64,000 nucleotides of DNA, taken from Agarophyton chilense (lineage: Eukaryota; Rhodophyta; Florideophyceae; Gracilariales; Gracilariaceae). The position numbers and the translations under genes are program-made. Location: positions 248,001 to 312,000 of the forward strand of contig JARGXX010000098.1 in assembly GCA_030374765.1 (NCBI GenBank), in the 5' to 3' direction. Positions 6,701-53,873 of the stretch are shown here, piece after piece (the first letter of the stretch is position 1; each line of letters opens with the position of its first letter). The notes under the pieces were generated by a model. It was not told the origin of the DNA. It ran no database searches and saw only the letters and a list, made by a program, of their open reading frames with translations.

Positions 6701-7733
6701 ATAATCACGTGAAGCTTTACAGGAAGCGGAAACCGATGAAGTTATTCCAGGCGAAAGCGCCTTTACAATATGTCAGTATCGACATTCTAGGGGAATTGAT
6801 TCGCTCAAGGCGAGGTTATCGCTACGTATTGGTAATCACCGACCGCTTCTCGAACCTAGTGCCGACTGTGCCGCTGAAGCGGATAACCGAAACGAAACCG
6901 TAATCGCACCGGCGTTTATCAAACACTGGGTATTTATATACGGACCACCAGAAGTTCTGTTGTCAGATAATGGGAAGCAATTCGTTGCGAAGTTCTTTCA
7001 GAATGTTTGCCGCATTATGGGCATTCGAAACGTGTTTACCACGACCTATCATCCGCAATGCAACGGTCAGGTGGAGAGTTTCAACCACACGCTGATAGCA
7101 GCACTACGACACTACATCGCGGACCACTCGAAAGAATGGGACATTTTTACTGATATTCTGTGCTACGCGTACAAGACGAAAGTGCATACCTCTACGAAGA
7201 CGGCACCGTTCGACCTCGTGCTCTCACGTAACCCTCCGGCTTTACCGGTTGAGCTCGACGACGAGACAGAATTGGACGCGCCGACCCCGGCTAAGTACCA
7301 TCTGAAATGGAGGAATGACCTTAAGGCCAGAGCGGAAGAAGCCGCTAAGGAGTTATCAAAGACGCAAGCTCGCTATAAGCGAAACTCTAACGCCACAAGG
7401 CGAAGAGGAAATCCGGCAATCCGAGTAGGAGGTCACGTCTTCGTTCGAGTCGAAAGACCGGACAAACAGGAAGAATCTCGTCATAAGTTGTTGCCGATAG
7501 CGGCTGGACCCTTCAAAGTGGTGGAACTTAACGAATAAACAGTGGTCATCAAGACAGGTGAGGACGTTGAACGTGTATCGCGCGATCGCGTTGAAGTCGC
7601 GCCTGACTCGCAAGTGGAAGTCCAGGTATCTGGTAGAACTAAGGAGGCAAGTGCGACGGAACGTCAAGGCAAAAGCCCAAGTGACTCTGGGGAGAGTGAA
7701 CCGCCACCAATGGCTCGAGCGGAGGAGACCTGA
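3720..7733 (+). pseudogene. pol: E1 pol: protease, RT, RNase H, integrase
   Basis: Replication polyprotein of the element. In order: aspartic protease with DTGAD near 4033; reverse transcriptase (about 4900-5560) with YLDD near 5405; RNase H (about 5850-6210) with a DTDSS-type start; integrase with zinc-binding HHCC, catalytic Asp residues and the YHP..NGQVE motif near 7047-7080; and a GPF motif near 7507. Damage: TAA at 4533-4535, frameshift in an 11-G run at 6453-6463, a compensating shift near 6890-6900 (TAA follows at 6901) and TAA at 7536-7538. The RT motif-A aspartate is AAC (Asn) at 5220-5222, where E2 and E3 have Asp. It cannot encode active enzyme. Confidence 0.88.
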
Positions 7734-8550
7734 TCTCCCACTGCCGGCGGTTGCGTACGCCAATCACGGACAGCTTCCGAAGTATCGGGATATGCTCCGT
7801 GGCACGCGCACACCCGTAAGTACAGAAATGGAACCTAAAAGCAGGAAAGCTGTTTTGGAATTTGGCCCCAAGGACTTGGAAACGAGTGCACGCGAAAACG
7901 CGCCTTTGCCGCTTCAGGCTGAACCGTCAGATGAAGCGCCACTCGCTGTTCCGCCGATATCGGCTCCCATCCCTCGTGGGCAGGAAGAAGAAGAGTTATC
8001 GCCTTCTGTCGTGGTGCAAGAACCATCGTCCACCAAACAGCGGTCAGAATCGGATGAACCGAAGGAGGTTCATCCAAGAATGGAATTGAGAAGTAGCAAG
8101 AAGTACGCTTCTATGGAACCTGGAAAACAGGATAGCTCTTTATCTAAGAAAGGTTGTCAAGGAATGATTACACTGCCCCTGCGGGCAGAACGACAGTTAG
8201 TCGACGAGCGAACGCTTAGCGACGCTGAGAATGCTAACACAGAGACGCTTGGGTCAGCCCTAAGGCATTTCAAACCTGTTAACAGGAGTCTCGCGCCAGC
8301 AGCGAAAGCATTGGGAAACGCCCAGGAATATGTTATGGATCGCATATGTGAACATGGCGAGCATGAAGATACTAGAGAATTACTGTATCGAGTCCGTTGG
8401 TACGGTTTTCCTCCGGAAGCGGATACGTGGGAACCTATAGCTCATATCCCCCGTTCGCAACTCGTGCGATATCATCGACGCATGCGATTACCACTCCCGA
8501 GGGAGATTGACTCCTCGATAGTCGGGCTCATGGGCACATCCCATTTCTAA
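7734..8550 (+). pseudogene. E1 chromodomain-bearing 3' part of pol
   Basis: In the +1 frame relative to pol, a Pro/Glu/Ser-rich linker leads to a chromodomain at about 8325-8490. Visible are EYVMDRI, YRVRWYGF, DTWEP and a helix ending in RYHRR, the usual chromodomain order. Chromodomains steer chromovirus integration toward modified histones. In E2 the chromodomain is also out of frame with integrase, whereas in E3 it is fused in frame. The open part of this frame begins upstream (7558), but that stretch overlaps the true end of pol. Confidence 0.75.
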
Positions 8551-8821: not shown

Positions 8822-10504
8822 TCAAAGAGACGTGCGAACACGCAGGTTCGCAAGAAGCTGTGCGCGATCACCCTCAACCTGGTCCACGGGAAAGCCCGCA
8901 TCTAAGAGGAACTGCCTCAGCGGATCCAAGCCTGGATCTTCGACCGGCACTGCACTCGGTTGTTGGGTAAACCCATAAGAGTACTCTTGAGCAACTCCCG
9001 TCGCTGCGGATTGATCGACGGAAGTCGCTACGCCTCCCAGCTCTGGCTCTTCCTCGTAACCGAGTTCAACCTCAGCTCCCGGCTCTTCCTCGTACGGTTC
9101 CTCTCCGTTCTCGGATGGAGTAGCATCGTACACGTATCCAGTAAGCTGGTTCGGTGGCATGTCACGCGGGTTCTCCCTAAGAAAGCAAGCCTGCTCGGAG
9201 GTGATCAACTGGCGCGTCCAGGGGTCGTACCAAACGAAATCACCAGCACTTGCTGTTCGTCCAGGAGACTGGTCGTAGTGTCTTGAACGGGTTCCGCGAG
9301 CAGATTGATCAGCTGGCACTCCAGACCAGTCGACACTGTCGATTACATCCATAAGATGGAGGAAGTCGGCATGGTTCGCACGGGATCCCAGGACAAGGGA
9401 AAGATCGAGTTCTCTCGCATACTTTCGTGTTGTGGGCGACATGTACCAACCTCTAAAGCTATCATAAGCATCCCACAGGAGGAAGACGGCCACCTTGGCG
9501 ATAAACTCGGTATAAACCACCGTCCAATATCCCGAGAACGGGTCGTTAACCAACGCGGACCCGATGTAGGAGATCACCAGTGGGAGCTCCACAGGGCAAC
9601 CACGAGGACTCTCGATCGCCGCCCAATGCTCCGGAATACCGATGTAGAGCCCGAAGCGCGCGTTGCGCCGGATGCGGTCAATCTCGATCATTTGATACGG
9701 CACCAAATAGCCCAAACGTGATCGAGTACAACGTTTCAAACGGGGATAATCCCAATAGGGAATGTCAGGCTTTCGAAGGAAGCGAAACTCCGCACGGAGG
9801 AGAGGTTGCTGAAAGCAGAGAGCTGCATCACGCACACCGCGCACACCGCGCCAACCGCTCACATCGACTTAAACGAGTGTCTCGATATACGAGTAACCTT
9901 CACCGTCGGTACGGGCTTTCCAGGTATCTAGTTCCCAGTCCTGCGGGAGGAGAACCGTACTGATGAATCGGTGAAGACGCTGGTAAATCAGCTTGGTGAA
10001 CCGCGTACGGGCTTCAAACAAGGTTTCCGTTGAATATCGCGCAATCGCGTTGTCTGGCAAAGCAATATGGCTCGCCCAGTCGTCGCTATAAATCGCGTGT
10101 CCCGGAATACCGTCAGGGAAGTACCCACCGTGTACATACTGTTGTATCAACGCGTCATCGCGGATAGCAACTGGATCAAACCAGGGCTCTTGCGCGAAAA
10201 TTTCAACGTTGTCGAGAGGATCTCATCCATGGAAATCCGCAGGGTGCGGGTAGCTCCGCTGAGCACAACGAGAAGGAGCTCGAATCACACCCGCAGAGGC
10301 GACGTAAGCCGCGTTCGGCATCGGAGCCACGGTTGGCCGAGGTAACGGTACCGACCGGAATCCGGTGCACGGTGTGGGGAACGAACGGTATGGACCGAGT
10401 TGAGAAGTAGGCTGCAACGCAGAACCAGCAGTATTGGACGGAGCCCCAGAAGGCACATCCTAAGACGAGGGCTGAAACGGGTTGGACCCGGCGTTCGGAT
10501 CCAT
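8822..10504 (-). pseudogene. E1 antisense accessory frame (unknown protein)
   Basis: Antisense to the element, between pol and the 3' LTR. From ATG at 10504 one frame runs 561 codons with only three nonsense codons: TAG 10460-10462, TGA 10223-10225 and TAA 9869-9871. It aligns throughout with the antisense frame of E2 (43126-44982). Shared motifs, E1 then E2: PWFDPVAIRDDALI / PWFHPTAVRDDELI, YQRL, LRAEFR, SRLGYLVPY / SRFGFLVPY, PRGC, DPFSGYW / DPNSGYW, LLWDAYDSFRGWY / LLWDAHDHFRIWY, DVID, SPGR. The tail is acidic and Pro-rich. I recognise no domain, signal peptide or membrane span. Protein-level conservation between diverged elements suggests it was under selection; this copy is broken. Confidence 0.8.
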
Positions 10505-10659: not shown

Positions 10660-10671
10660 AACGAGGGGGTA
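10660..10671 (+). other. E1 polypurine tract
   Basis: AACGAGGGGGTA abuts the 3' LTR. E2 has the similar AAGGAGGGGGAGA in the same position. This primes plus-strand DNA synthesis in LTR retrotransposons. Confidence 0.7.
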
Positions 10672-11338
10672 TGTAGTATTCTACTATTTCGGGGAATTCG
10701 ATATGCTGGTTTTTCGCGAAGACGCGGTTGGAACTCATAAGTGAGTGATGTCATCAAACTTGTGATATGAAACGGCACACCGCGTAGGATGCTTAGAGGC
10801 AGAATTTCTTAGAGGGACCCGTGGTATCACGAGTGGAGTGGCTTGCAACGGCGCATGTAGTGGCGATCCACGTGGCTGGTTTTACTACCCTTTGTAGCTA
10901 GACGTCCATTAGGGACCGTACCCATACAGTGGTTTGGCTAAGTGGCTAACCACTGGGTATTATTTATATATCTATTTGGGCACTCACCCTGGTACACAGT
11001 ATATAGTGTACAAGAGGTGAGCGCCGACTCCAAGGATAGGAGACAACACGGGCATCATGACTATTCTGTTCCTCGCTTAGGATTCCTTAACCGGAGATCT
11101 GGACGAGCTATAATAGATATTCAGCCCCCAACCACTTCACGAGCCGTCTCGTACCTACATCCCATCAACGTTTTATAGTTGCGCTGTTCACCCTCGCTGG
11201 CGTGTAGTGGCCTTACACCCCACTTTCAGCTCGCTGGTGTTGTAGCTCTACCACCCCTTTTCTTTCGCCGCAAGCGACCCATCGGCAGTCCGAACGCTGT
11301 CGCAGGTGTCTGCTCTCTCCATTAGAGCGGATACTACA
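10672..11338 (+). repeat. E1 3' LTR
   Basis: 667 bp, TGTAGTATT...ACTACA, same length as the 5' LTR but with substitutions scattered from the first 20 bases on. Followed by gaaca (11339-11343), which does not match the pentamer left of E1 but is the reverse complement of tgttc at 20602-20606. Confidence 0.93.
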
Positions 11339-13040
11339 GAACAACCAACAGGCTCAACTCTACACCATATGCCCTCCCTACCTAGCGCCTTGCTAAAAAA
11401 TGCAAGAATTCGAGTACTGAACGACGCCTTGAACCTCCTCTTCGAGCCAATTCCCGAACTGTGGAAGTCTTGGATAAGGTTTTCTTCAGCTGATGGAACA
11501 GCTCACGTCTTTCACCCCCTTCTGGCCAGTCACTGTGCAGATATTCCAGAGGCAAATACCTTCTTTTCTTTTCTCATGGCACTCTCACTGAATGCCCATG
11601 CCATCGATGTCTCATACAGCGAGACTATCTCAACCTAACTACTCCCTCCTCTGCATGCCTACGCTAAACTTCTCATACACGCAATTTCCGGGCAAAAAAT
11701 TCTTCTATATTGCTCAAATCCGAACAGGAATCTTCTCAACACCGTCTAAAGAAATCTAGAGAACACAGGATCCAGGCGAAAATTCTTCTGAAGTCTCAGT
11801 CTCTCTCCCAGTTTCCATTCTTCTTGAAACAGTATCGTAATCTTAACTGGATTCCAGGCCTCAATCCCTACAGAACTCTCAGTTTCGAACCGCTCCATAA
11901 CCTGCACCTCGTAATATCAAAGCTCATAAAAACCAGCTGCAATAGAACGATTATATTCTGAAACATTGTCCACAACCGTCGGCTCCAGCGCTCCTCGAAC
12001 ATTTAAAAGCATACGACCACTTATAATAAACCACTTCAATTCCGTAACAGCCGTGAATCAAAGGAATAACCCAGCAACTGGTCTTATCATCGATATCTCT
12101 TAAAAGGACAGAATCAAGTCGCTGAATGGATTCTTCACAAAGGATGGTTTACGCGGTATGCTTGAATCAAACGAAGATAAAGCTTTGGACATGATATTCC
12201 CTTTCATCGGGGCGTTCTTCGAAAGTTGATGCGGTAAAGAGAACCAGGCCCCCATCACTACTGTGCTTACCAGGTACTCAGACCTCGTCGGTACTTTGTG
12301 TCATTTCGATTCCAAACCGCACAGGACACCCACCACTCTTGAGCAATTTCGAAAGAATATCATCACCTTCAAGCACAGCGCTTTACAGACATTGGAAGAG
12401 TTTCACATTTCTGGTCTTGGCACAATCTAATTTCACCTCCTATACCATCTCTTCAATGATATTAGTTGCCTTAGAAATATAACCTACTATGATGCTGGCG
12501 TTTATAGGCATGCTCATCTAGTTTTCAAAACACACTGCAGCAATTCCTCCCAACGAACTTTGACAGCCGCGTCAGAGACCGTTCTATCAATCGATCATCA
12601 TCACATTCAGAAGCAATGAAGAGAAGACTACAAAAACGTCTTCTCTCATGGATTATCTACATCTTCAATCCGCGCTCTCCAAAACTTTTGAAGAGATCGT
12701 TGCAGTGCTCTATTTTCGGACCTCAAAGATGTAGAGAGCATCATATATGTGGAAACGGAGTCCTTTCAATCCATTGTATCCAGCAACATATTATAACTTT
12801 TCAGCTATGAAACTATCTTTATCCTGTCACAAATCTGGGACGCAGCCCTCACCCTTTTTTGAAACTCATAAAGGAATCGCTCTCCGAGCAGAACACCAGT
12901 TTCTGTGCTAGAGATATCACCTTATCCTTTGTCAATTCTTCTAGTATCACTGGTTGGGCTTTCCCTTCATTCGACATCTACGAGGTGGAAACGAACACTA
13001 TTTCCCTGGCAAACACGCACCCCCCACAGTATAACTCAAT
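11339..13040 (+). pseudogene. Large CACTA-related (Plavaka-like) transposase relic, 3' part
   Basis: Frame 11339-11638 and later blocks (11710-11961, 12616-12810, 12859-13044 with frameshifts between) read like the large transposase-type proteins of CACTA-related elements. Visible blocks include PSLPSALLKNARIRVLNDAL, PELWKSWIRFSSADG, HPLLASHCADIPEA, GLNPYRTLSFEPLHNLHL and IYEVETNTISLANTHPP. The family call is from memory of such proteins and is tentative. The N-terminal part is on the minus strand at 20607-21720 and joins this one in frame across the swapped pentamers, so a single gene was split. Confidence 0.5.
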
Positions 13041-17756: not shown

Positions 17757-17867
17757 ATTATATAAATTATGATAGAATGAAGTAAAGATGATGTTGTTTA
17801 AAGATTGTGGACGATCTTTCGTGATCTTTGAGGTTGACGCCAAATAAGAAGGGAGTGTTGACAACAT

Positions 17868-19930: not shown

Positions 19931-19935
19931 CATCC

Positions 19936-36981: not shown

Positions 36982-39900
36982 ATGCCGGCGCCTACACAGC
37001 ATGCGTTCTCGTACGCGCATGCTGCACAGCTTCTTCGCTCTTCGCGCGCTTCCCCGCACGAGAAGATACGCGTAGCGCGTGATTTGCTAGCGCGTACGCT
37101 CATCCCTCATCCCACCACTCTCATTCTTGAGCACCTGTTTTATGCGCTCAAGAATTCATCGTCAAAGCCAAACGATTTTGTAGCGGATTACTGGCTGCTG
37201 TTGCACGATACGCTGCAGAATGCAGCTCTCAACTCGCAATATGTGCCAGAGTTTCCTGACTCGCTCATCGAGCATGCGGCTGCACACATTGTGCAACCCG
37301 CATGCACAACGGCTGTCGTTGAGGCATTGGGCACGGTTTTCAAGTACCCCCTGCCTCATTCGCTGCAAGCGTTTGGCACGTTGCTGCGCAACGTTGCCAC
37401 TCTTCTTCCTGGCGACTCGCACATTCAGTCCTTGGCAACCTCCGCGCTTGGCATGTACGGGGAAATGCAGCGCCAAGAACAGGATCACAAGAAGATGATA
37501 CTGATATGCATTCCTCTGCTAGAACCGTTCTTGTCGTCTGCGGAGCTGCGAGAGTCAGCTGAACCTGTGTTTCGTCACGCGTTTTTTGCTGAGCCCAACA
37601 TCGCTCGTGACCCTATCATTTCGTATATTGCGGAGTGCAACAGCGATGATTTGGCCACCGTATGTAGCTTTCTACTGACGGCGTACACCGAAGCCGAGAG
37701 CCACCGCGCCGAATCACTGGAGGTGGCTCGCCAACGAGCTGCGGTGCAAAAAGGGAGCGGGCAGCTGAAGAGAATTCGGCAACTCGTTGAGAGGCCGCAC
37801 GTGCTCCGGCTGTTTCAAGACATGGTTGCGGCTCTGAGCGTGAATTTGGTGCATGGGGAGTTGGTATGCGTTGCGCGGGTGCGGGCTTTGCGTGCTGTGT
37901 TTGTGACGGCGTGCGATCTGGACATGTACCGGCCGAATCTTGAGGATGTATCGGCCATTCAGGCGGAGAAGAAGCTGAAGAAAGGCAGCGAGAGTTTTGG
38001 GGTACACACTGTAGGATTGGAGATTCGACAAGCTTTTGGGGCTGTTTGTGCACTTGCTGAGCAAATTTGCAGCGGAAGGAAGTCAGGAGATGTGATGGTA
38101 GTCGTGGAAACTGCGCTTGCGATGGTAAAGCTTTCTGTGGACACTGTGGATAACGTTGTGCCGAGGTTGCTGACAGCGTGCGGGGAGGGAAGCTTCCATG
38201 ACGAGCGGCGCATGCTGTACAGCGAGCTGCTTGGGATATATGCTCGAACGCGGTGCGTTCCCAAGTTGATCGGATACTTGAAAGGAGCGGGGGACGGTTT
38301 TCTTTTCGCGAAGTATGAGAGCATATTCGGTGACGATGACGTGCGGCACGTCACGGCAGTGACAGTGTACGGGCTGCCACAAGGGCAGGCGGTGGAGTGT
38401 ATCGCGGCGATGGGCGGTGAGCAGATCGCAGTTGGAGAAGCGCAGAGCGTTGCGTTGTTGGCAGCGTTGGTGTTGGAAAGCAGTTGTGATGAGAAGGGTG
38501 TGGTGGTCGAGTGTGTGTGCGACAAGGTTATGGGCAAGATAGTGAGGTGCCAAGAGGAAGGAAGCGGTGGGAGAAATCGGTGCGCGCTGCTTTTCTTGCT
38601 GTCGTCAGTAGTGCTGTGCATTGTGAAATGGAAGTTGGGGGGATCGAAGAGCAAAGCGGTGGAGGCTTGCGTGAGAAGCGGGGTGCTGCAAAGCGTGAGC
38701 GGGTTTCCTTTTGGAATTGATGACTTGGGGGACTTTGCGAAGAAGTTTGGGCGAGAGGCGGAGAAGCGCGCGGGCGATGCGGTGGATGCGTGCGAGACGC
38801 TGTGCACAATGAGGCTGGCAGCGGCACTGGTGCACGTTGGGGATGCGGGCGGCGGCGAGGACGACGCGACGGCGCGACAGTTGTTGGGGGTTGTTTTCGA
38901 CGGGGTGGAGCGGCTGAAGGGGGAGGAGGTGCGGGGATGTGAAGGGGTGGACGGTGCGCGCTTGAAGGCGTTGTACAATGGAGTTGAGTTCGACAAGGTG
39001 GCTGCGCTGGTGGCGAGCGTGGTGGACGTGATGGACCACGTGGGGCTGGAGCGCATGGTGGGCGGGCTGGAACGCTTTCTGTGCAGCGCGAGTGCCAGGG
39101 AGGGTGAGTACGCAGCGCTGTGGGCGGACTTGCTGGAGAGCGCGACGGTGCAGCGATGGTTCGGGCAGGTGGCGCTGGGGGCGTTGAAGCGCGCGGAACG
39201 AGCGGCGGCGGCCACGGCTGAGGTGCGCGGCGTGCTGCGGCTGCTGGCGCGCGCGCCGCCCGGCTACTTGCGCCACGATCGCGACGCGCGCCAAGTGGCG
39301 GCGGCGGTAGCGCGGCTGTTCGAGCACCTCCGTGGTGACGAGCGCGCCATGAGCGCTGCGCTGCAGGCGGCGCTCAAGCTGCGGCGCGTCGGCGGCGCGC
39401 CCGCGCAGGCGCTGCTAGAGCACTTTGAGCTGCTGCTCGGCGGCGACGACGACGCACTCGACGCGCTGCTGGCCGGAATGCGCGACGGCGGCGGCGATGA
39501 CGATGACGACGACGACGACGACGACGACGATGATGCCGGCGCCAATGACGATGCGCTGCTGAGCGTGGCGCAGCGCGCGCTACGCTCGGCCGCCGCGTCG
39601 TGCGTGCGCAGCGCGCACTCGAAAATGCCGCTTTGCGCCCGCGTCGTGCGCGTGGCACACGCGCTGCTGCGCGACGCACACACCCCCGCCGCGCTCGCGC
39701 GCGACGCGCTGCGCGTCGTGCACACCGTCGTGCGCGCCGCGCGCGCGCCTTGCCGCGCTGTACTGCGTGTGAAAGGATCAGAGCCGTCGCGCGTGTGCCA
39801 CGCGCTGCGCGTCGTGGCTGAGGTGCTGCGCGTGCTTGCCGTGCTGCACGTGCACGGCGCGCGCGGCCGCCGCGCCTCCGCCGCGTGTCACAAGCTCTTG

Positions 39901-41073
39901 CGCCGCTCGCTGCCGTCTGCCGCCACGCTCAGCGTGCATCTCTTGCTCCAACCTCACCGCCACCTCGATGACGACGACGACGACGACGATGACGACGCCC
40001 CTGCTACTGCCGCCGCCGCCGCCGCCGAGCTGCTCCGCGCGTGTGCGCGCTGCGCGCACGCGCACTTGGCGCCGCGCCTGGTCGCCGCTGCGCTTGCCAT
40101 GCTGGCCGCCGGTCGCGAACCCGCGCGCACGGCCGCCGTGCACTTGCTGGGCGATCTGGGCGCTGCCCCGCCTGCCGTCGCGGACCTGGCCGCTGTCGCC
40201 GCGTGCGCTGCCTTGCGCCGCCAGCTTGACGTCTCGCCCAATCGCACCAGCCCCACGCGTCTACGTCACCTGCGCGACTGCGCTCTGGCCGCAGCCGCTC
40301 CGCTGTGCGCAGCCGCCGCGCCAGCTGCCCCGCCCGTCGTGCGCCTCGATGCGCGCCAGCACTTTGAAGGCTTTGTCTCCGCGCGTCTCCGCCGCCACCG
40401 CCACGCCGCACGTCTGTCGCGCCGCGCAACTGAACAGGTGCTCGGCGTGCTGGCGGACACCGCCGAGTGTGCCGCCCAAAGCGCCCCGCACAGCGTTGCC
40501 GCCGTCACCGACGCACACGCCATCCTGCATCACGCGCTGTGCGCCGCCGAACTTGCCATCGCGCGTCGTCCCCCGCACCGCCCCGCCACACCAGCCCTGC
40601 ATCACGTCGTCGCTATCGTCGCCGCTGCGCTCCGCGTCTCGTCCGCCGCTGCCGCGCGCGCCCCAGAGCAAAGTGTCGCGGCACGTGCGCTCGCGCTGTG
40701 CGCCCTCATGCTACGCGTTCCGCGCGCCGCCCCCGTGCATCTTGCGCTAATCGCCGTGCTGCGTGGCGCGCCGCGCCGCGCCGCGCACGACGCCTGGCCA
40801 CAGTCGTCCGTGCGTGCACTGGCTGCTGCGCTGCGCGAGGCAACGAATGTGCCTTTTGCGTCGGCACTCGCGGGCGAAGCTATTGCCGTCTTGGCAATTG
40901 CTACGAGACCTGTTTTGCGTCGCGCGCTGCTGCCTGCTGTTGGGAAGTTGTTGGTTGACGCCGATGAGCTCGCTGTCGCGCGCGCGCTGCCGGTCGCGGC
41001 GCAGGATGCGGAGCGAGACGTGGCGCGTGCCGCTCTGGCTGAGGCGCGTGCTGCCCGCTATCGGGGGCGCTGA
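36982..41073 (+). CDS. Large alpha-helical (HEAT/ARM-like) protein, family unknown
   Basis: 1363 residues from the chosen ATG at 36982; the frame is open back to 36646 and the start is uncertain. It is almost entirely amphipathic helix with Leu/Ala-rich pairs, as in HEAT or ARM repeat scaffolds. Two poly-Asp runs (39496-39535 and 39967-39997, from GAC repeats) interrupt the C-terminal half. From about 39.1 kb onward G+C rises sharply and the protein becomes very rich in Ala and Arg, while the frame stays open, so it is coding. Large nucleolar or transport scaffolds have this look, but no signature allows a name. Intronless. Confidence 0.6.
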   Translation: MPAPTQHAFSYAHAAQLLRSSRASPHEKIRVARDLLARTLIPHPTTLILEHLFYALKNSSSKPNDFVADYWLLLHDTLQNAALNSQYVPEFPDSLIEHAAAHIVQPACTTAVVEALGTVFKYPLPHSLQAFGTLLRNVATLLPGDSHIQSLATSALGMYGEMQRQEQDHKKMILICIPLLEPFLSSAELRESAEPVFRHAFFAEPNIARDPIISYIAECNSDDLATVCSFLLTAYTEAESHRAESLEVARQRAAVQKGSGQLKRIRQLVERPHVLRLFQDMVAALSVNLVHGELVCVARVRALRAVFVTACDLDMYRPNLEDVSAIQAEKKLKKGSESFGVHTVGLEIRQAFGAVCALAEQICSGRKSGDVMVVVETALAMVKLSVDTVDNVVPRLLTACGEGSFHDERRMLYSELLGIYARTRCVPKLIGYLKGAGDGFLFAKYESIFGDDDVRHVTAVTVYGLPQGQAVECIAAMGGEQIAVGEAQSVALLAALVLESSCDEKGVVVECVCDKVMGKIVRCQEEGSGGRNRCALLFLLSSVVLCIVKWKLGGSKSKAVEACVRSGVLQSVSGFPFGIDDLGDFAKKFGREAEKRAGDAVDACETLCTMRLAAALVHVGDAGGGEDDATARQLLGVVFDGVERLKGEEVRGCEGVDGARLKALYNGVEFDKVAALVASVVDVMDHVGLERMVGGLERFLCSASAREGEYAALWADLLESATVQRWFGQVALGALKRAERAAAATAEVRGVLRLLARAPPGYLRHDRDARQVAAAVARLFEHLRGDERAMSAALQAALKLRRVGGAPAQALLEHFELLLGGDDDALDALLAGMRDGGGDDDDDDDDDDDDDAGANDDALLSVAQRALRSAAASCVRSAHSKMPLCARVVRVAHALLRDAHTPAALARDALRVVHTVVRAARAPCRAVLRVKGSEPSRVCHALRVVAEVLRVLAVLHVHGARGRRASAACHKLLRRSLPSAATLSVHLLLQPHRHLDDDDDDDDDDAPATAAAAAAELLRACARCAHAHLAPRLVAAALAMLAAGREPARTAAVHLLGDLGAAPPAVADLAAVAACAALRRQLDVSPNRTSPTRLRHLRDCALAAAAPLCAAAAPAAPPVVRLDARQHFEGFVSARLRRHRHAARLSRRATEQVLGVLADTAECAAQSAPHSVAAVTDAHAILHHALCAAELAIARRPPHRPATPALHHVVAIVAAALRVSSAAAARAPEQSVAARALALCALMLRVPRAAPVHLALIAVLRGAPRRAAHDAWPQSSVRALAAALREATNVPFASALAGEAIAVLAIATRPVLRRALLPAVGKLLVDADELAVARALPVAAQDAERDVARAALAEARAARYRGR

Positions 41074-42127: not shown

Positions 42128-43044
42128 TGTGGAGCAAAACCCGGCGACGGGAAGTACTCTCAAGGTGTTCGAAGCCTTGCTCCCTGGGGGAGGCAGACTC
42201 AGAGACAGAGCCCTCCGTTCCACCCGTAGTGTGGGGTGTAAATCCCACGGGGGATTCCGGCAGTACCGACGGAGGTGAGGGGTAGAAACCGTTGGATCGG
42301 GAATGGGTATGGGTATCCCAAAGAATGGGGGAAAATCCGGCGAAGAGGAAAAACGGGGCGAGGGTCGGGCATTAACAGGCACCGGACCCGAGAACCAGAA
42401 AAGGGGCGAAACAACAAAAGAAACCCAATACAGGGGCGAAAACCTGTCCTCGAAAAGAAACACAAAAAGCACGCAACAAGTAAGCAGAACCCCCACGGGG
42501 TATCGTGCACGCAGGTCGTCTGAGCGGTCCCAAGGGGGTGGTTGCACGGAACCCAAACGTGGGCACTCTCCAAGTGAAGTCGTGTCCCTACGCAGGCGTT
42601 GCTAACAAGAGCCCGTTCCGGGTTGTAAGGCCGAAACGATGGCGACGAAGAACCTCTAAAGGTATCGAAGACCAACCTTGGTTTCCCTCTTACTCTGAGC
42701 TTCGGACTGTCAGATCTCATCTCCCTAAGTAGGGCCCACTAACTAAACTCTACAGTAGTGCACACCTGCTCAGGGGCATACACGTGGAGATCCAACTGTC
42801 AGGGCCCAAAAGTCCAACGTTCTAACAAATATCCGAAAATCGGTGCCAAAATTAAGCCACATGTATCACGGGGCCAATCCAACCATGGGCCATCCGAATT
42901 TTCACTTCATAGGCGAACTCTAACCAGAAAACAGTGCCACCTCAGCACACCTTAGAGGGGATCATAGTCATAACCCTCGGAGGGTTCAATCCTCATTCTA
43001 TGAGTTGCATCTTCAAGTATCCCCTAACTGGGCGTTGCTCTACA
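42128..43044 (-). repeat. E2 3' LTR
   Basis: 917 bp. In element orientation it begins TGTAGAGC and ends GCTCCACA. Differences from the 5' LTR noticed: A/G near 42146, A/C near 42242 and G/A near 43031. Frames inside it are not genes. Confidence 0.95.
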
Positions 43045-43060
43045 TCTCCCCCTCCTTAAG
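43045..43060 (-). other. E2 polypurine tract
   Basis: In element orientation, TTAAGGAGGGGGAGA directly precedes the 3' LTR. Confidence 0.75.
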
Positions 43061-43125
43061 ACGAGGAAGAACATTCCGAGCCGCGGGTGTCTCGCTTTCC
43101 GGTCACTATACATACTTCTCTCCCA

Positions 43126-44982
43126 ATGGGGTCCTTCACCACTTCTGAGGATCGCCACAAAACCGGCACATCGGTACAGCTTTCTTCTACTCCTCCGACT
43201 TTCGGCGATAAGCAACTTCTCGCAACAGCAGTCTCAACCAGCCCTGTCAAAGAAAAGAACCCATACGTCATCAACCCACTCTCGGGGCCGTCGGCCTCCG
43301 CGCCGGCGGACAACGAAGCTCCCCAGCAGGGTGGATATTTTTCCGGTTTGGATGCGGCTCCGTCAGGTACCGAACCTTCCGCCTCGGCGAGCAACCGACA
43401 TCCTCAGGAGGATTTGGACATTAACGCGGTGGCGTGGAACTCCGCTCATGCGATGCCCTTGGTAGCAAACTCCAGAGGTTGGATCTCAAACGAATCCTTT
43501 CGAAGGTGGAGTCCCCTTACCGATCCGGTGATATATTCCCGCGCTCCGTGGTTCCATCCGACAGCGGTTCGCGACGATGAGCTCATCGACTCCTACGTGG
43601 AGGACGGCTTATTGCCGGGTGGCCCACCTGTCGAGGTTGTACGTTCTCCCGATTGGAGGGCGCGGGTAGCCATAGAGCCTCAGTATCTATACCGCGGTCG
43701 CGGGGAGTCCCTGGACAAGGCGCGCGCAGCGATGGCGGCTCTGGCCTACCAGCGATTGGAGAGGTCACGCTTTGACCATCTGGTTCCCCCGGAGTACGGG
43801 TTCGATGTCGCCTATTACCGCACGTACGGTGAGGTCTCCTACGGGGATAACCTTGCAGCCTTTCCCGAAGCCGAGTTCCGCGGACCGGGTTTTCCTCTTC
43901 GAGAAGATATGCTCCAATGGAGTCGTCCCATCCTTCGGGCTGAATTCAGGTACCTTCAACGGCAGTTTACCCAGTAAGGGTTCGATCGACGCGTGCGCTT
44001 CGAGCGCCGCTCGCGCTCCCGTTTCGGGTTCCTTGTCCCTTATCCTCACGTGGAACTGGAGCGTATCCGTAACACGGCGAAGGTTGGGCGATTCGTGCCC
44101 CTCCCAGCTTGGTGGAGTAAGTTCGAGGTCCCCCGAGGGTGCTTTGCTGAACTGCCCCCATGCATCTACTATATTGGGTCTCGTTTGATGCACGACCCGA
44201 ACTCGGGATACTGGGCCCTCGTTGCAGCCGAGTGGGCAGCCCGCGTAGCGGCGCACCTCCTCTGGGATGCTCATGACCATTTCCGTATCTGGTATATTCC
44301 TCCGATGCTACGGACCATCATGCGTCAGATCGACCTTGTCCCAGCGTTGGTTTCGGCCAGCAGCGTGCAGGACCTGTATCCAATCTTGGACGTGATCGAC
44401 AACACCCAATGGGATCGAGTTCCAGTGGAAAATCAGCCCGCAGGGGAAGGATCCGCGCGAGACAAGTCTCCTGGCCGATACGATCCGGGCTCCGGTAACT
44501 GGGTCTATTACAATCCCTTCGAAGGGGTTCGCATCAGCGCGGCGCAAGCACGGGCGCTGATTGACTCGCCTCGACCGATGCCGGTGGGACACCCGACGGG
44601 GTTCATTTGTACCGACGATTACGAGTACGAGCCTCCCGTAGAACTGGACGATCCAGCGTTGGATAACGACATGCCAGCTCCTAGTGGAGTACTCCCTGTG
44701 GAGCCATCTGCACCCTTCCAACCAGTGGGAACGACCTCAGCTGCGGCGGCGAATGCATCCGGTGGCGGTCCATCTGCTCCCCCCGGGTGGGGTGTGAACA
44801 CCCTTGCGCAGGCGCCGGTTGCCACTCCGCAAGCGGATAGTGTGCGACAAGGCCTCGTGAACGCGGGCATTCCGATTCCCCCGGGTATGACGGATGTGAG
44901 CCAGATGTTGGCTTTCGCCTCGGCGTACCATCAGAGTCAGAATCCCAACGGTGGGGCGGGTCCCTCCTCGGGCTTTCCGTAG
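43126..44982 (+). pseudogene. E2 antisense accessory frame (unknown protein), one stop
   Basis: Antisense to E2, between chromodomain and 3' LTR. From ATG 43126 (the frame is open back to a GTG at 43087) it runs 619 codons with a single in-frame TAA at 43975-43977, after which the same frame continues. It is the homologue of 8822-10504 in E1 over nearly its whole length. Order: Pro/Ser-rich head; PWFHPTAVRDDELI; YQRLERSRFDHLV; ILRAEFRYL; after the stop SRSRFGFLVPY, PRGCFAELPP, YYIGS, DPNSGYW, LLWDAHDHFRIWY, DVID, SPGR, WVYYNPF; then an acidic Pro/Gly/Ala-rich tail. No known domain, no membrane segment. It starts about 80 bases inside the 3' LTR, so an antisense promoter would lie in the LTR. 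Confidence 0.85.
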
Positions 44983-45200
44983 TTCCGCCTTCGGGCAATT
45001 GTAGAGTCCATAGCTTGGCGACAATAGTAAACTTCTGATATTTACATAACTTCTTTTCTTCTTCCTTCCTAGGGTCTTAACTTCTACTTTATCTTCTTCA
45101 TTCCTTCTTAGGATCTTCTTCATCTTCTTCCCTTCCTAGGGTCCAATCTTCTTCTTAATCTTCTTCTCCACTTCGTGGGTCTTCTTTTTCTTTTTCATCA
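44983..45200 (-). repeat. Purine-rich spacer of E2
   Basis: TTC/CTT-rich on the + strand, hence GAA-rich in element orientation. CCTAGGGTC recurs near 45069 and 45137 with a diverged copy between. It matches the position of the E1 spacer 8563-8760, where the sense and antisense frames converge. Confidence 0.55.
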
Positions 45201-45371: not shown

Positions 45372-45733
45372 TTACCCGACTTGGGCACGATCCAGACTTG
45401 GAGGCAAGGTTACCGAAGCGCGTCGGTGATAGGATAAAACCTTAGACCTCGGAAGGTGCTCAATGGGTTCCACTGTATCCTCATCAGGCGATAATCCGTA
45501 CCATCGGACTTGGTAGCGAACTTCTCCCTCGGGGTTGTAGATGTGACGCACGATGCGATCGATAACGAATTCCTGCGGGTACACTTTTCCCTGTTCGGGC
45601 TTCTCTTCCATCTTGGAACGCTCTAGATCCCTTGAGGGTGTCAACGTAGGGTCTAGACACACCCCGGTGGGTTCTTTTCCATGTTGCGAGCGGGTCTCAG
45701 CACTTCGTCCAAACGGCGCCGAGTGGCCTGTGG
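45372..45733 (-). CDS. E2 chromodomain frame
   Basis: An open minus frame ending at 45372 holds a chromodomain: QEFVIDRIV, VRYQVRWYGL, DTVEPIEHLP and a helix VLSYHRR. The usual W of the DTWEP motif is V. It lies in the -1 frame relative to integrase, and the 960 bases between have stops in all frames, so expression would need splicing or recoding, or it is broken. E1 shows the same separation. Confidence 0.7.
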
Positions 45734-46696: not shown

Positions 46697-49600
46697 TTAC
46701 GGGTGCGGAAGTGTAACGGGGCGGGTGTTCGAATCTCCGCCTGACGGGTTAACTTCCGTTGAATCATCCCCTGTGGAGGGCGTTGGTGCCGACACCACTT
46801 CCACATTTGGGTTGGGCGCTCGTGTGATGCGGTCCCTGGAGATCCGTTCGTGGCGGTTAGCGATATCCAATACCACCGTGTCCGGGTCTACAGAAACCAC
46901 CCGATAGGGTCCGTCCACAATTGGGGAAAGCTTGTGCCTACGTTTCTTTTCAGGATTGTAGTATTCCTTTCGAAGGAAGACGAAGTCGTCGGGCTCCACC
47001 TGAGGTAGAGGTTTGCGAACCCGATTGTCAAAGTCCTTCTTGTAGGCGCGTTGAGCTTTGTCCATTGCTTTCCGGGCTATCGGCACCATCTTCGTAAGCC
47101 ACTCCTTCCAGGCTTCTCGGTACAATCCCGGTGACGGGTACGTCGACAGCGTCGGTTGAGCCTCAATGGCGACCGGCGGCGGTGTCCTCGACAGTACCAG
47201 TTCGAATGGGGATAACGATGTAACCCGATGTACCTGGGTGTTGTATGCATACGTGATAGCGTCTGTGTACAAGTCCCAATTTTTGATGTGATCCGCAACA
47301 TACGATCTCAAAGCGTTGAGTATCGTGCGGTTAAACCTCTCCACCTGGCCATTCCCCTGAGGGTGATACGTAGTAACAAATAAATTCCTTACATCAAGGA
47401 TTCGACATACATCCTGAAAGAACTTTGATGCGAATTGCCCTCCGTTGTCGGATAACAACTGCACCGGCGGTCCATATACGAACACCCAATGGGTCACGAA
47501 CGCTTGCGCGACGGTAGCGGCGGTGATCCGCTTCAGCGGCACAGTTCTCGTTAGCTTAGAGAATCTGTCAGAAATGACAAGCAGATACCGATGACCTCGG
47601 GGCGTCCTGATAAACTCCCCTAGGATGTCTATGGCCACGAATTCGAGTGGAGCCCGTGCCGGGAACAGCTTCAACTTCTTAGAGTGCTTCCGAAGTTTGA
47701 CGTCATTCTTGGCGCAATTGGCGCAGGCCCGTCTGACAGCGTAACAATCGAATGCCATTGCCGGCCAGTAAAAGTCCCTTCTCAACGTGAGGTACAGTTT
47801 TCTTCCCCCGGGGTGGGCGCCAACCTTCACATAGTGAGTGAGGTGTAATACCCTCTGTTGTAGGGTGTGCGGCACCACTATCCTCGGGCGAGGTCCAACG
47901 GTCCTGATTAGGTAACCCTGATCGTCGTCCTCGAAAGGTAACTGAAATCCTCCGTTGAGGCGAGCCCGAATCCGTGTACAGAATGGGTCGAGCTGTTGCT
48001 CGCGTATCATCTCCTCTGGAGAGATAGGTATAAAAGAGCCGGTCGGCGAATCCAGACTCTCGTTGACGAGTATATCGTCACAAACATCATCCGTCAGCGG
48101 TTGAGCTCCTCCCTCCAGGTCCGATACCATAAAACATGGGATGTTATCGTCCTCGTAGAGTTCCGTTTCCGCTGTGGTTCCCAAGCGGGATAGTGCATCG
48201 GCCTGAGTGTTCAGCTTCCCTTTCTTGTACAGGATCTCAAAGTCGAATTCCGACAGTCGGAGACGCCAGCGCATAAGGCGGCCCGAGGGTTCGGAGATCT
48301 CCAGGAGCCAACGCAAGCATGCGTGGTCCGTATGGACTTTGAAACGAGTACCCATCAGATAGGGGCGAAGTGTAGCTAAGGCCCACACAACGGCTAAACA
48401 TTCTTTCTCGGAGACCGAGTAGTTCCTTTCATCGACATTCAGGGAACGTGACCAGTACCCAATAGGGTGACGTTCACCATCCTCAGAGGAATGGAACAGT
48501 GCACACCCTACTTGGTTTGCACTAGCATCGGTGTCCACTTCGTAAGGGAGCCCAGGATTGGGTAGAGCCAAGATTGGCGGTGATGTTACGGCATTCACCA
48601 GTGCCGTGAAGGCAGACGCTTCTGCGTCGCCAAAAGGTTCCAGTTCAACTGGTTGTCCCTTCGTCAGGAGCCTGTTGAGGGGGGTGGAAATATCCGCAAA
48701 GTTCGGGACGAATCGGCGATACACGTTACACAGACCTAAGAAGGATCGCAACTCCGTTTGAGTTTTCGGGTGTTTTGCTTCCTTCAAGGATTTCACTCGT
48801 ACTTCATCGATTGAAAGCTGTCCGGGACGGATGATATGACCCAGATTCTTAACCGAATCGGTGAAAGACTCGCACTTCTTGAGTTTCAAGGTGATCCCCG
48901 CGTCGCGGAGTATCTTCATTACGTCCCTGACGTGTTCGAGGTGGTCATCCAGGTTGTTGGAGAAGACAATAATGTCGTCTAAATACACTAGACACGTCCT
49001 CCACTTGAAGGTAGCCAACAGAATGTCTATCGCCCGTTGAAACGTTGCGGGGGCATTTGTCAACCCAAAAGGTATCCTCCGGAATCGGAAAAGTCCTTGA
49101 TGACACACTAAAGCCGTTTTGTCTCGATCTTCCTCCCTAATAGGGACTTGCCAGTAGCCCGAATTGGCGTCGAGGGTAGAGAATACAGTAGCACTCCCAA
49201 GGGAGTCGATGTATTCGTCCATCAGAGGGATCGGGTACACATCCTTAATGGTTACCTCGTTCAGGCGTCTGTAATCGATGCAGAAACGCCACGATCGATC
49301 CGGTTTCGGAACTAACACCACTGGTGAGGCCCCAGCGGACTGGGCAGGTTCAATTACGCCCGCTTTAAGCATCTTCTCCACCTGAGATTTCTCCTTTTCC
49401 CGAGCTTTCAGTCCAGCCCTGTAAGGGTGTTGGGCAATAGGCCGAGTGTTCGGTAACAAGTCGATGCGGTGTTCTGTAATCCCAATAGTTCCAAGGGAAC
49501 CATCCCACATGGGGGTAAATTCACGAAGCATGTGCCTCAGCTTCTCCCGATGAGATGCGTGTACATGGTTGAGATCCCATTTCTCCAATTCCTGAACAGG

Positions 49601-50707
49601 ATCCGTCTGGTCTGCTCCTGTGATAGGGGCCGTAACCTCCTGAGGTTTAAAGTGTTCAACGTGTGGAGCTGCAGTCGTATGCTCACCGTCTTCCGCGATT
49701 TCGGCAGTGTCCTCCCCCTGCTTAGGGTCCGCCACACCAAGGATCTCTGCGATAGAGATCTTTGTAGGTACGACCGCATGCGGGTGTGGAAGAACAGAAC
49801 CCAGGATCTGGTGTTTGACCAAATGCTGCGTTGTCTTTCCAAAGTTGGCTACCAAAACCTTGAAAGGGTTATCCGGTTCCACGGAGACAACCCCATTCGC
49901 AAGGGCGAGTTGACGCCGCGTATACAGAGACGGGTTCGGTTGTACCACATGCACACCAATTTTCTTGGTAACAACTGTGACCCAAACCTGGGTTTCTGGC
50001 GGGATAGCCACTGACTTTGCAACCGTTACCCGTGTAGACACCGGGTCCTTCTTCACAGATTCCTGCGCGACAGGGAGAGGAACGCGTGTTCGCGCTGCTC
50101 CCTGTAAGGGTTTACGAACGATTGGGATCGTAGACCCGTCTTCGAGTTCCACAGTTCTATTCCGAGAACGGATGGCTTCCACGAAGCGGTCGCAAAAGTC
50201 ACAACCCAGTATGACTGGTGCTGCAAGTGACTTGCATACAATAAATTCTAGCTGAACGAGATAGGAGCCTAACCTCACCATGAGGGAAATTGTACCCAGT
50301 GTCCGTAGCGGGTTGTTGTTCGCATCGGCGATATCCAAACGTGGACCGGTACGAACTTGAACCCGGAGCAGCGGGGGTAATAATTCAACATGAATTAAGT
50401 TAGGAGCGGCTCCTGTATCCAGGACAGATATTTGACGAACCATAAACTGGTTGGACAGGCCGAAGTCGGCGAATACTTTATAATTCCGCTTGGCCATTAC
50501 CATAACTCGATCCGGAATACGGAGATTACGGGACCGTATCCACGGGCGACGGAGGACACTAAAGTATCCCGAGTTAACGTCGGTGTCAGCCGTTTTCCTT
50601 GAAAGGATAATCACAGCTGGGGAGCGAAGCTGGAGCGCCTCGGGCGTCTTCAACTCCGGCTTAGAAGACGCCGCTCCCGCAGGGGAGACTCCCAAGTTTA
50701 GTTTTTC
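46697..50707 (-). CDS. pol: E2 pol: protease, RT, RNase H, integrase, intact
   Basis: One open frame of about 1336 codons, -1 relative to gag, open from the candidate slippery site (50701-50707). Domains by residue from 50695: aspartic protease with LDTGAAPN near 90; RT with FCIDYRRLN, the motif-A aspartate in FSTLDANSGYW, and YLDDIIVFS; RNase H with VDTDAS; integrase with zinc-binding H-H-C-C (HLTHY, CANCAKN), catalytic D in AIDILGEF, D in LLSDNGGQF and E in NGQVERFNR; then the GPYRV motif of chromoviruses. All expected catalytic residues are present, so this could be active enzyme. It ends in a Thr/Pro-rich tail at 46697. Confidence 0.93.
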   Translation of the reverse strand, partial: EKLNLGVSPAGAASSKPELKTPEALQLRSPAVIILSRKTADTDVNSGYFSVLRRPWIRSRNLRIPDRVMVMAKRNYKVFADFGLSNQFMVRQISVLDTGAAPNLIHVELLPPLLRVQVRTGPRLDIADANNNPLRTLGTISLMVRLGSYLVQLEFIVCKSLAAPVILGCDFCDRFVEAIRSRNRTVELEDGSTIPIVRKPLQGAARTRVPLPVAQESVKKDPVSTRVTVAKSVAIPPETQVWVTVVTKKIGVHVVQPNPSLYTRRQLALANGVVSVEPDNPFKVLVANFGKTTQHLVKHQILGSVLPHPHAVVPTKISIAEILGVADPKQGEDTAEIAEDGEHTTAAPHVEHFKPQEVTAPITGADQTDPVQELEKWDLNHVHASHREKLRHMLREFTPMWDGSLGTIGITEHRIDLLPNTRPIAQHPYRAGLKAREKEKSQVEKMLKAGVIEPAQSAGASPVVLVPKPDRSWRFCIDYRRLNEVTIKDVYPIPLMDEYIDSLGSATVFSTLDANSGYWQVPIREEDRDKTALVCHQGLFRFRRIPFGLTNAPATFQRAIDILLATFKWRTCLVYLDDIIVFSNNLDDHLEHVRDVMKILRDAGITLKLKKCESFTDSVKNLGHIIRPGQLSIDEVRVKSLKEAKHPKTQTELRSFLGLCNVYRRFVPNFADISTPLNRLLTKGQPVELEPFGDAEASAFTALVNAVTSPPILALPNPGLPYEVDTDASANQVGCALFHSSEDGERHPIGYWSRSLNVDERNYSVSEKECLAVVWALATLRPYLMGTRFKVHTDHACLRWLLEISEPSGRLMRWRLRLSEFDFEILYKKGKLNTQADALSRLGTTAETELYEDDNIPCFMVSDLEGGAQPLTDDVCDDILVNESLDSPTGSFIPISPEEMIREQQLDPFCTRIRARLNGGFQLPFEDDDQGYLIRTVGPRPRIVVPHTLQQRVLHLTHYVKVGAHPGGRKLYLTLRRDFYWPAMAFDCYAVRRACANCAKNDVKLRKHSKKLKLFPARAPLEFVAIDILGEFIRTPRGHRYLLVISDRFSKLTRTVPLKRITAATVAQAFVTHWVFVYGPPVQLLSDNGGQFASKFFQDVCRILDVRNLFVTTYHPQGNGQVERFNRTILNALRSYVADHIKNWDLYTDAITYAYNTQVHRVTSLSPFELVLSRTPPPVAIEAQPTLSTYPSPGLYREAWKEWLTKMVPIARKAMDKAQRAYKKDFDNRVRKPLPQVEPDDFVFLRKEYYNPEKKRRHKLSPIVDGPYRVVSVDPDTVVLDIANRHERISRDRITRAPNPNVEVVSAPTPSTGDDSTEVNPSGGDSNTRPVTLPHP

Positions 50708-52728
50708 GAAGCGGACCCCACCGAATTCGGTGCGGCTGCCTCGAAGGGGACCGGTTGTTCCCCGTTCGCGGGTACAAGTTCTGTATCCCTGTCAGCAAGG
50801 TGAGCTCGGAGTATCCTTTGTTCCTCATAGGACCTACTCGGGACTCGAGCTTTCTTCTCAGGGGTCAGAGCCTCGTACTGAGCGATAATTCGTGAACCCT
50901 CCCGCAGGGGAAATGTGCAGTTTGATGCTTTGTGACCACGGAGTTAACACAAATAGCAAATCAGCTCTGCCGGGTTCGGTTGTGGACGTGAATCCACGCG
51001 ACGTGGTGCTGTATCCCTCCATCCGGGGCGAGAGAACCGAGCAGCGGTATTCGCAAAAGGTAGCGATGCGGCTGGCACCCTCCGTCCTTGGGTATAGAGC
51101 GCAGAGTTTTCATCCGTAGTCGGAGCAGATGTCGACGGCAACTCAGACGTACCCATAGATTCGGGGTTACTTCCCATGAAGTGCATGTTATCATTGACCC
51201 CCACAGGGGCAGGGCCTCCTGCGAGTGACAAAGACGAGTTACCTCCATCGGCGAGGAGTGCACGTGTCGGCCGACTCTTTCGGTTCTGCCGGGCACGGAG
51301 AGTATCCCCCTCAGCCTGGGCGTACTGAACCAGTTCCAAGTAGGTCAGCTTGCGCTTCTCTTCCCGATTTCGGGCAACCAATGCACTTATCGAGGGGTCA
51401 AAGCCATCCACAAACATGGTGCATCTTTCGTAGGCGGGGAATACATTTCCGCATCGGTGAAACGCTTTATTCAAGCTAGTTGAATACACCGTTTCGGTTT
51501 CCATTGGCTTCTGCCGCGTATCCCTTAATGCAAGGATTGCTTCCTGAATCGCATTTCCAGTAGCGTATGACCTCAAGAGGTACTGCACCGCTTCGGGCCA
51601 GCACGTGACTCCCCCTTCCGAGGCTCGGGATGATCCACGGATGGAGTTGAACTGGTCTTCAGCCATCCCCTTTAAGAAATAGGGTAATGCAAGATACGCT
51701 TGCGCTTCACTCATACCGAGGATGTCAGCCTCCTGGACGAACCTCGCAAGGAAATCGAGCACCAGAATTGGGTCTGTTCCTGTGAACTCCCTCTTCTGTA
51801 GGGTGATGCTCAGCCTTTTGATGTAGTCCTTGACCTTACCCGTTCCGCGGGATGTTCGATCTCCCGAAGGGTTATCCAACCGGTAATAGCGGTACGATAG
51901 CAGCTTCCGATAGAGAGGATTCGTCGGCTTCAGCTCCCTTAATCCAAGGTGTTTCCTACCCTTCTTCCGGGTACGGATTGCCCCTTGAGAGGTGTAAGTA
52001 GCCTTCGACCGAGTCGCCCGGGATGACCGGCGTCCATCTTCACTATCCGAAGATTCGGAGGACGAACTCGATGACGAGCAGTTGGGATCGGAATCCGATA
52101 AATCCTCTTGGAGGTGAACCCTCTTCTTGGACTTGCGGCGGTGCCGTTTAGCGGAGCGGTGTTCTTCGTCTTCCGAAACGTCGGGTTTATCCTTCGAGGC
52201 TTCTGTGTCTCCGTCCATACGGATAATGGCCTCGAGGGTGTCCAGCCGAGCTCGGAAGCGTTCCGCTTGCACGCGGTGTTCCTCCACGAGGCTCCGGTAC
52301 CCCTGGATAAAGACCCCAGGGGTACCAAAGCCTTCCAAAAAAGAGTTCACATCCCTCCTCAGGGTACGAAGGTCATCGGCGACTCCCCGCACCGGGGCGT
52401 CCTCCACCTTGAGGCGGAGGGTATTAACCTCCTGAAGGAGCTCGACGTGAGCCGCGTTGGCGATATCGATTCGAGTCTCCAGGCGCTGTAATTCAGGGTC
52501 GGCCCGACTTTGGGGTGCTGCTGAGGGGGTCTCCACCACTGGAGCTGGGCCCACAACCACGACCTCTCGAGGACCTGAAACCACTGAGGGTGCTCTCCGA
52601 GTGTCCGGATCGATATCGGAATCGTTCCGACCTTCGGGAATTGAGCTCCTCGGCCTAGGCGGAACCGGGGGCACTGAATTCGCTTGACGGTTCGATCCAG
52701 TCCTGGAACCACGGGTAATCGGAGACAT
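50698..52728 (-). pseudogene. gag: E2 gag with a stop inside the zinc knuckle
   Basis: From ATG 52728: Pro/Ser-rich head, coiled-coil-like segment, acidic Ser-rich linker, capsid-like core (KLLSYRYYRL, GGVTCWPEAVQYLL, RCGNVF), then the knuckle C-x2-C-x4-H-x4-C. A TAA at 50944-50946 occupies the first of the four residues after the second Cys. The frame continues 82 codons beyond it to the true end TAA at 50698-50700, next to the frameshift heptamer. Everything else is intact. Readthrough or a recent mutation are both possible. Confidence 0.85.
50701..50707 (-). promoter_or_regulatory. Candidate -1 frameshift heptamer, E2 gag-pol
   Basis: GAAAAAC in element orientation, with AAA and AAC in the gag frame and TAA next. 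Pol is open in the -1 frame from here. Same place and phase as GGAAAAC in E1 and E3. Confidence 0.5.
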
Positions 52729-52936: not shown

Positions 52937-52954
52937 TTCTAAGTCGGGAGACCA
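52937..52954 (-). other. E2 primer-binding site
   Basis: TGGTCTCCCGACTTAGAA in element orientation, two bases from the LTR; identical to E1 and E3. The leader from here to gag (52729-52936) shows nothing else. Confidence 0.75.
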
Positions 52955-52956
52955 CT

Positions 52957-53873
52957 TGTGGAGCAAAACCCGGCGACGGGAAGTGCTCTCAAGGTGTTCG
53001 AAGCCTTGCTCCCTGGGGGAGGCAGACTCAGAGACAGAGCCCTCCGTTCCACCCGTAGTGTGGGGTGTAACTCCCACGGGGGATTCCGGCAGTACCGACG
53101 GAGGTGAGGGGTAGAAACCGTTGGATCGGGAATGGGTATGGGTATCCCAAAGAATGGGGGAAAATCCGGCGAAGAGGAAAAACGGGGCGAGGGTCGGGCA
53201 TTAACAGGCACCGGACCCGAGAACCAGAAAAGGGGCGAAACAACAAAAGAAACCCAATACAGGGGCGAAAACCTGTCCTCGAAAAGAAACACAAAAAGCA
53301 CGCAACAAGTAAGCAGAACCCCCACGGGGTATCGTGCACGCAGGTCGTCTGAGCGGTCCCAAGGGGGTGGTTGCACGGAACCCAAACGTGGGCACTCTCC
53401 AAGTGAAGTCGTGTCCCTACGCAGGCGTTGCTAACAAGAGCCCGTTCCGGGTTGTAAGGCCGAAACGATGGCGACGAAGAACCTCTAAAGGTATCGAAGA
53501 CCAACCTTGGTTTCCCTCTTACTCTGAGCTTCGGACTGTCAGATCTCATCTCCCTAAGTAGGGCCCACTAACTAAACTCTACAGTAGTGCACACCTGCTC
53601 AGGGGCATACACGTGGAGATCCAACTGTCAGGGCCCAAAAGTCCAACGTTCTAACAAATATCCGAAAATCGGTGCCAAAATTAAGCCACATGTATCACGG
53701 GGCCAATCCAACCATGGGCCATCCGAATTTTCACTTCATAGGCGAACTCTAACCAGAAAACAGTGCCACCTCAGCACACCTTAGAGGGGATCATAGTCAT
53801 AACCCTCGGAGGGTTCAATCCTCATTCTATGAGTTGCATCTTCAAGTATCCCCTAACTGAGCGTTGCTCTACA
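52957..53873 (-). repeat. E2 5' LTR
   Basis: 917 bp, nearly identical to 42128-43044. The outer flank is cacgt (53874-53878), the reverse complement of acgtg at 57763-57767. Confidence 0.95.

Follow-up and report, generated by a model that had tools for sequence, protein, structure and literature searches.

Two Ty3/gypsy retrotransposons, E1 and E2, lie in a stretch of 64,000 nucleotides from the red alga Agarophyton chilense (the window; contig JARGXX010000098.1), and both carry, antisense to pol, a long reading frame for homologous proteins. This homology extends across at least seven element families of the genome, one of them decayed. Many copies of the frame are open, it is antisense to pol in E1, E2 and a third family (L079), and the antisense protein has been under constraint. 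We consider it rather probable that this is an accessory or regulatory protein of chromodomain Ty3/gypsy elements, one that would be driven by the LTR and would have been inherited across many families.

The antisense reading frames of E1 and E2

E2 lies on the minus strand and consists of two LTRs, gag, pol and a chromodomain; since the last is downstream of RT, RNase H and integrase, E2 classifies as a chromodomain Ty3/gypsy element. E1 lies on the plus strand. The features concerned are as follows.

43126..44982, plus strand: antisense accessory ORF of E2 (ORF reading and profile matches)
42128..43045, minus strand: 3' LTR of E2 (matches the 5' LTR in 914 of 919 aligned columns)
43045..43057, minus strand: polypurine tract of E2, adjoining the 3' LTR (read by eye)
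45423..45569, minus strand: chromodomain of E2 (Pfam PF00385, E 8e-9)
46697..50695, minus strand: pol of E2, with RT, RNase H and integrase (Pfam)
50944..52728, minus strand: gag of E2 (similarity to E1 gag)
52956..53873, minus strand: 5' LTR of E2 (LTR pair comparison)
7558..8550, plus strand: C-terminal part of E1 pol, with chromodomain (domain match)
8822..10504, minus strand: antisense ORF of E1, homologous to that of E2 (alignment and profile matches)
10671..11339, plus strand: 3' LTR of E1 (its 5' counterpart lies at about 683-1355)

A sequence-only reading of this DNA had described the E2 frame as 619 codons long, antisense, and situated between the chromodomain and the 3' LTR. The position agrees with the coordinates of E2, the frame being opposite in strand to both pol and gag, and so does the extent, from the ATG at 43126 to the TAG at 44980-44982 on the plus strand (619 codons with the stop, 618 without it). 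The frame is not unbroken, as an in-frame TAA at 43975-43977 interrupts the window's own copy, leaving two stop-to-stop frames in the same phase (43060-43977 and 43978-44982); elsewhere in the genome there are E2-type copies in which the codon at this site is open. The window's E1 frame contains three in-frame stops (pieces 8825-9868, 9872-10222 and 10226 upward), and the LTRs of E1 are identical at 631 of 676 columns. RT-RNase H and a chromodomain were identified in E1, the integrase of the E1 type was recognised through linked places, and gag gave a sub-threshold match to Retrotrans_gag.

The same reading had matched the E2 frame to 8822-10504 of E1 and had noted that gag and pol of the two elements are well diverged, and both observations hold. 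Two open copies, one of the E1 and one of the E2 type, are 35% identical over 528 aligned residues (32% over 547 in an alignment of six families), and a profile of six open copies, two of which are relatives of the window copies matched, finds the two window frames with E-values of 3e-149 and 5e-148. Over the rest of the elements, RT-RNase H is 54% identical over 657 columns and gag 37% over 241 columns, so that the antisense protein (32-35%) is about as conserved as gag.

Several other features of the window were recorded. E1 and E2 have in common a primer-binding-site-like sequence, AGTGGTCTCCCGACTTAGAA, directly inside the 5' LTR (about 1358-1377 and 52937-52956), and a pyrimidine-rich (TTC) tract occupies 45040-45200, between the antisense stop and the chromodomain of E2. 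A third element begins at 56845 and runs on the plus strand to 64000; its 5' LTR, inverted relative to the LTR of E2, is 98% identical to it, its pol sequence is spread over several frames, and its antisense region would lie beyond the end of the window. An inverted E1-type LTR at 19935-20609 is perhaps a solo LTR or a fragment. The minus-strand ORF of 643 codons at 15936-17867 has a DDE_Tnp_1_7 transposase domain (E 3e-44), which we take to be of the PiggyBac type. Host-like genes in single open frames, for a diphthamide synthase with L-PSP domains and an MRNIP-type protein, occupy 31107-33095 and 34673-35701, and a G+C-rich stretch holds an open frame of 1475 codons (36646-41073) with no Pfam match above the cut-off. 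In the genome at large, models of hydrophobin, Fungal_trans and TGase_elicitor matched nothing, but as they were equally silent in 14 control genomes this says little about absence; a telomere pattern gave no match either.

Homologues across the genome

We searched the whole assembly (79.8 Mb, 135 contigs) for relatives of the antisense protein and found hundreds. With the C-terminal half of E2 as query, the best 122 of 1606 candidates were scored, and for the E1 type the best 117 of 1598; a 49-residue stretch of the homologue in the L079/L082 family led to at least 150 further places, so that there are, without overlap, at least 122 E2-type, at least 117 E1-type and at least 150 further homologues. 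An open frame of at least 600 codons, with no stop in the match, is present at 55 of the 122 best E2-type places and at 17 of the 117 best E1-type places (some of these being near-identical duplicates), and 44 of the 150 further places are likewise open over at least 600 codons. The E1-type ORFs at L036, L037 and L038, each on a contig of its own, are identical, perhaps through recent duplication or assembly overlap.

Besides E1 and E2, the families that were read comprise four more with open frames (L083 to L086, with 652, 638, 639 and 624 codons from stop to stop, respectively) and the decayed L079/L082. The homologue in the latter (match E 3e-28) is on the strand opposite to a chromodomain segment, read by eye, about 2.9 kb away. 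Three loci picked by their integrase yielded one new family and two members of the E1 type. The many families that carry the homologue rule out a captured gene limited to one or a few copies.

Selection on the antisense protein

In all 15 between-family pairs of the six open copies, 31-56% of residues are identical, with pN of 0.30-0.50 and pS of 0.65-0.78; codon positions 1 and 2 are 0.48-0.72 identical and third positions 0.28-0.44, and dN is 0.38-0.84 against a dS ranging from 1.5 to saturated. Within families we compared variants private to one copy with variants shared among copies, using the best-scoring matches (48 of 122 for E2, 30 of 117 for E1), a choice that favours intact ones. For E2 (44 of the 48 copies used), the 638 copy-private variants gave a dN/dS of 0.83 and the 132 shared variants 0.49, the proportions of synonymous and nonsynonymous changes differing between the two classes (p 0.0009). 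In the other frames the shared variants gave 1.16-1.84, except for 0.58 in the wobble-sharing sense frame. Because the copies had been fetched by the protein score of the C-terminal half, the ORF was also divided: the N-terminal half, which was not in the query, gave 0.64 for shared variants (p 0.03), and the C-terminal half 0.33 (p 9e-5). For E1 (28 of 30 copies) private variants gave 0.91 and those shared by at least two copies 0.80, and the 27 events found in four or more copies 0.48; by halves, the shared ratio was 0.96 in the N-terminal and 0.71 in the C-terminal part, neither being significant.

Thus, selection is strong over long times, moderate in E2 and weak in E1, the older set; it almost vanishes once a copy has inserted, and the near-neutral copy-private variants are what decay after insertion would give. 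The past selection on the protein that the sequence-only reading had argued for is confirmed by the between-family values and by the shared variants of E2. That reading had also named a dN/dS near 1 across many copies as evidence against itself: the private variants of both families and the shared ones of E1 come close to this, and the shared variants of E2 and the between-family comparisons do not.

The protein and its possible relatives

Conservation along the protein (in L083 numbering) is low in the first 140 residues, highest at 301-420, where motifs such as RSRxGYLVPYQ, ELPPxIxYxGS, SGxWxVV and LWxxYDxxRxWY are found, falls at 521-600 and rises again at 601-640. After residue 480 the net charge is -8 to -22 in all six families; in the first 100 residues it ranges between -5 and +15, which means that a basic N-terminus is no general feature. 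An AlphaFold2 model from 18 aligned sequences (L083 counted twice) is weak, with a mean pLDDT of 52.5 and higher values at model residues 14-110 and 263-383; an earlier model from E1 and E2 alone had a pLDDT of 33, at best about 74 in two helices at 568-602 of L003. The layout would accordingly be a poorly conserved and probably disordered N-terminus, a conserved core of about 380 residues, an acidic stretch and a short C-terminal helical module.

The claim that the protein contains no recognised domain survived a wider set of searches. Pfam gave chance matches only, NCBIfam (two proteins searched) no significant match, PHROGs (three proteins) one chance match with E 0.24, and the PDB by sequence one chance match with E 0.91 and none in a second search. 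Foldseek with the weak model found no fold match, the best E-values being 6.5 in the PDB and 5.7 in BFVD. Collections of viral and prokaryotic contigs held no relatives, which says little about eukaryotes, and literature searches found no recognisable description of the protein in titles and beginnings of abstracts, most subscription papers falling outside their coverage.

Position relative to pol and the LTR

The placement of the frame between pol and the 3' LTR is seen directly in E1 and E2 in the window and, by reading, in L079/L082. Genome-wide, an RT lies on the opposite strand and on the expected side at 71 of the 122 best E2-type places, with left coordinates 3.5-4.5 kb apart, and otherwise at one, when at least 150 RT places are used; adding 32 hand-picked RT places raises the count to 93 of 122. 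An integrase is placed as expected at 30 of the 117 best E1-type places and never otherwise, among at least 150 integrase places. Places without such linkage may lack pol, or fall outside the matches listed. Beyond these two types linkage by coordinates is scant (2 of the 150 further places as expected and 3 otherwise; among the 46 of 97 L083-type places that were checked, 1 linked to pol and 3 otherwise), since most entries in the pol lists belong to other families.

For L083 to L086 the position rests on the polypurine tract, next to ends that are LTR-like. All six families show, at most about 170 nt before the presumed start ATG, the complement of a polypurine tract together with an end that resembles an LTR; this complement is the only thing in common among the words upstream of the ATG. 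The ATG follows the complement by about 70 nt in E2, where the gap from the mapped LTR is 80 nt; across families the distance between ATG and LTR end is only about 35-170 nt, and E1 has an earlier ATG, within the open frame, that would sit still nearer to the LTR end. As a promoter outside the LTR would hardly fit into so short a space, an antisense promoter within the LTR is likely and would be the simplest source of the mRNA; in E2 this source is probably the 3' LTR.

Mechanism and alternative explanations

We therefore propose, from the position of the start codons, that a promoter in the 3' LTR may drive an mRNA reading inward into the element, and that its product would act in trans as a regulator or cofactor of the element, either as a repressor or as a helper. 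Position and analogy suggest a regulator, whose most likely target would be LTR transcription, chromatin or integration, as for HBZ of HTLV-1. A bolder form of this proposal, namely a large undescribed accessory family that accompanies many chromodomain gypsy families within a single host lineage, has its antisense expression driven by the 3' LTR and represents a very old, HBZ-like but independently evolved regulator, is one we put forward only tentatively.

One may also consider a role in structure or replication instead of regulation, the protein being a cofactor that is gag-like (a second such protein), associated with the capsid or a nucleic-acid chaperone. We regard this as unlikely, yet as a serious rival, because between E1 and E2 the protein diverges at about the pace of gag. 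Nevertheless, it has no similarity to E2 gag (E 0.6), nothing significant emerged from Pfam, the PDB or BFVD, and antisense expression would uncouple the dose of such a cofactor from that of gag.

Another alternative is suggested by p22 of the yeast element Ty1, a copy-control factor that limits its own element. A protein of this kind, selected through survival of the host, appears to us slightly less probable than a cofactor: if driven by the LTR it would resemble APH-2, APH-3 and HBZ, which according to PMC10186651 damp sense expression, but the E1 and E2 types each have more than 100 copies, with no hint of strong self-limitation.

It is improbable that what matters is the antisense transcript, through double-stranded RNA or transcriptional interference, and that the frame is incidental. 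Non-coding roles of antisense transcripts are among those described for retroelements and retroviruses in PMC7264820 and PMC10186651, and near-neutral copy-private variants would suit such a role, but protein identities of 31-56% with near-saturated third positions in six families, together with 55, 44 and 17 open frames, more than 100 in all, need protein-level selection at some time.

Least of all do we credit a chance frame, which is excluded by the profile matches and by open copies genome-wide, or a shadow of sense-strand coding, the other objection that the sequence-only reading had raised against itself: although the wobble-sharing sense frame must, and does, have a low apparent dN/dS as well, and one sense frame is open over 411 codons opposite the antisense ORF in L084 (590-1822, plus strand; a frame with 3 stops in all) and over 298 codons in L083, the wobble-sharing frame contains 12-28 stops in all six open copies, which refutes the shadow for that frame, and the other sense frames contain 3-18, none being open throughout.

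Comparison with known systems

An LTR-driven accessory or regulatory protein would join a class of antisense extra ORFs that is already known, from plant elements such as Grande and Retand and from the fungal Boty (brtn). The precedent in Grande had been recognised in the sequence-only reading, correctly as to kind; the likeness to plants is one of analogy only, and brtn had been missed. The plant aORF-3R of Grande (gene23), RIRE2, Retand and PvRetro13 resembles the present frame in orientation, position, occurrence in many copies and conservation, according to PMC7264820, where the functions of antisense genes in LTR retrotransposons are given as not known. Retand, however, lies outside the chromoviruses, and where its antisense ORFs have a known domain this is mostly TRP28 (PF04195), as stated in PMC11963269, whereas Pfam-A scans of the six open members, up to an E-value of 10, gave no TRP28 match, the E1-type and E2-type proteins included. 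For Grande, the sequence preceding gene23 is described as containing a promoter; in the present elements the ATG is only about 35-170 nt away from the LTR end.

Chronos of oomycetes is likewise a Ty3/gypsy element with a chromodomain, distantly related to chromoviruses, but has a second RNase H (PMC5348765), whereas E2 pol shows one RNase H region by Pfam; the main text of that paper does not contain the word antisense. HBZ of HTLV-1 is an antisense gene with its promoter in the 3' LTR (PMC10186651), and the comparison concerns how such a gene may work, given that the promoter here is a proposed one; HBZ is a bZIP protein, no bZIP domain was matched in the Pfam scans of the six open members, and we claim no evolutionary relation.

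The many open copies, the at least six divergent families in one genome and the clear core make this system suitable material for codon models, structure and expression tests, which would help to establish how generally Ty3/gypsy elements use antisense LTR promoters to make a protein. The source paper for brtn of Boty-like elements is reportedly Zhao et al. 2011. As cited in PMC7264820, PMC8365987 and PMC4227169, brtn occurs in Boty-like elements of Botrytis and Sclerotinia; it is an additional gene, antisense and situated between pol and 3' LTR (PMC7264820), and since the gag-pol of a Boty-like element also includes a chromodomain (PMC4227169), brtn would be, by description rather than by sequence, the nearest known case in position, orientation and chromodomain alike.
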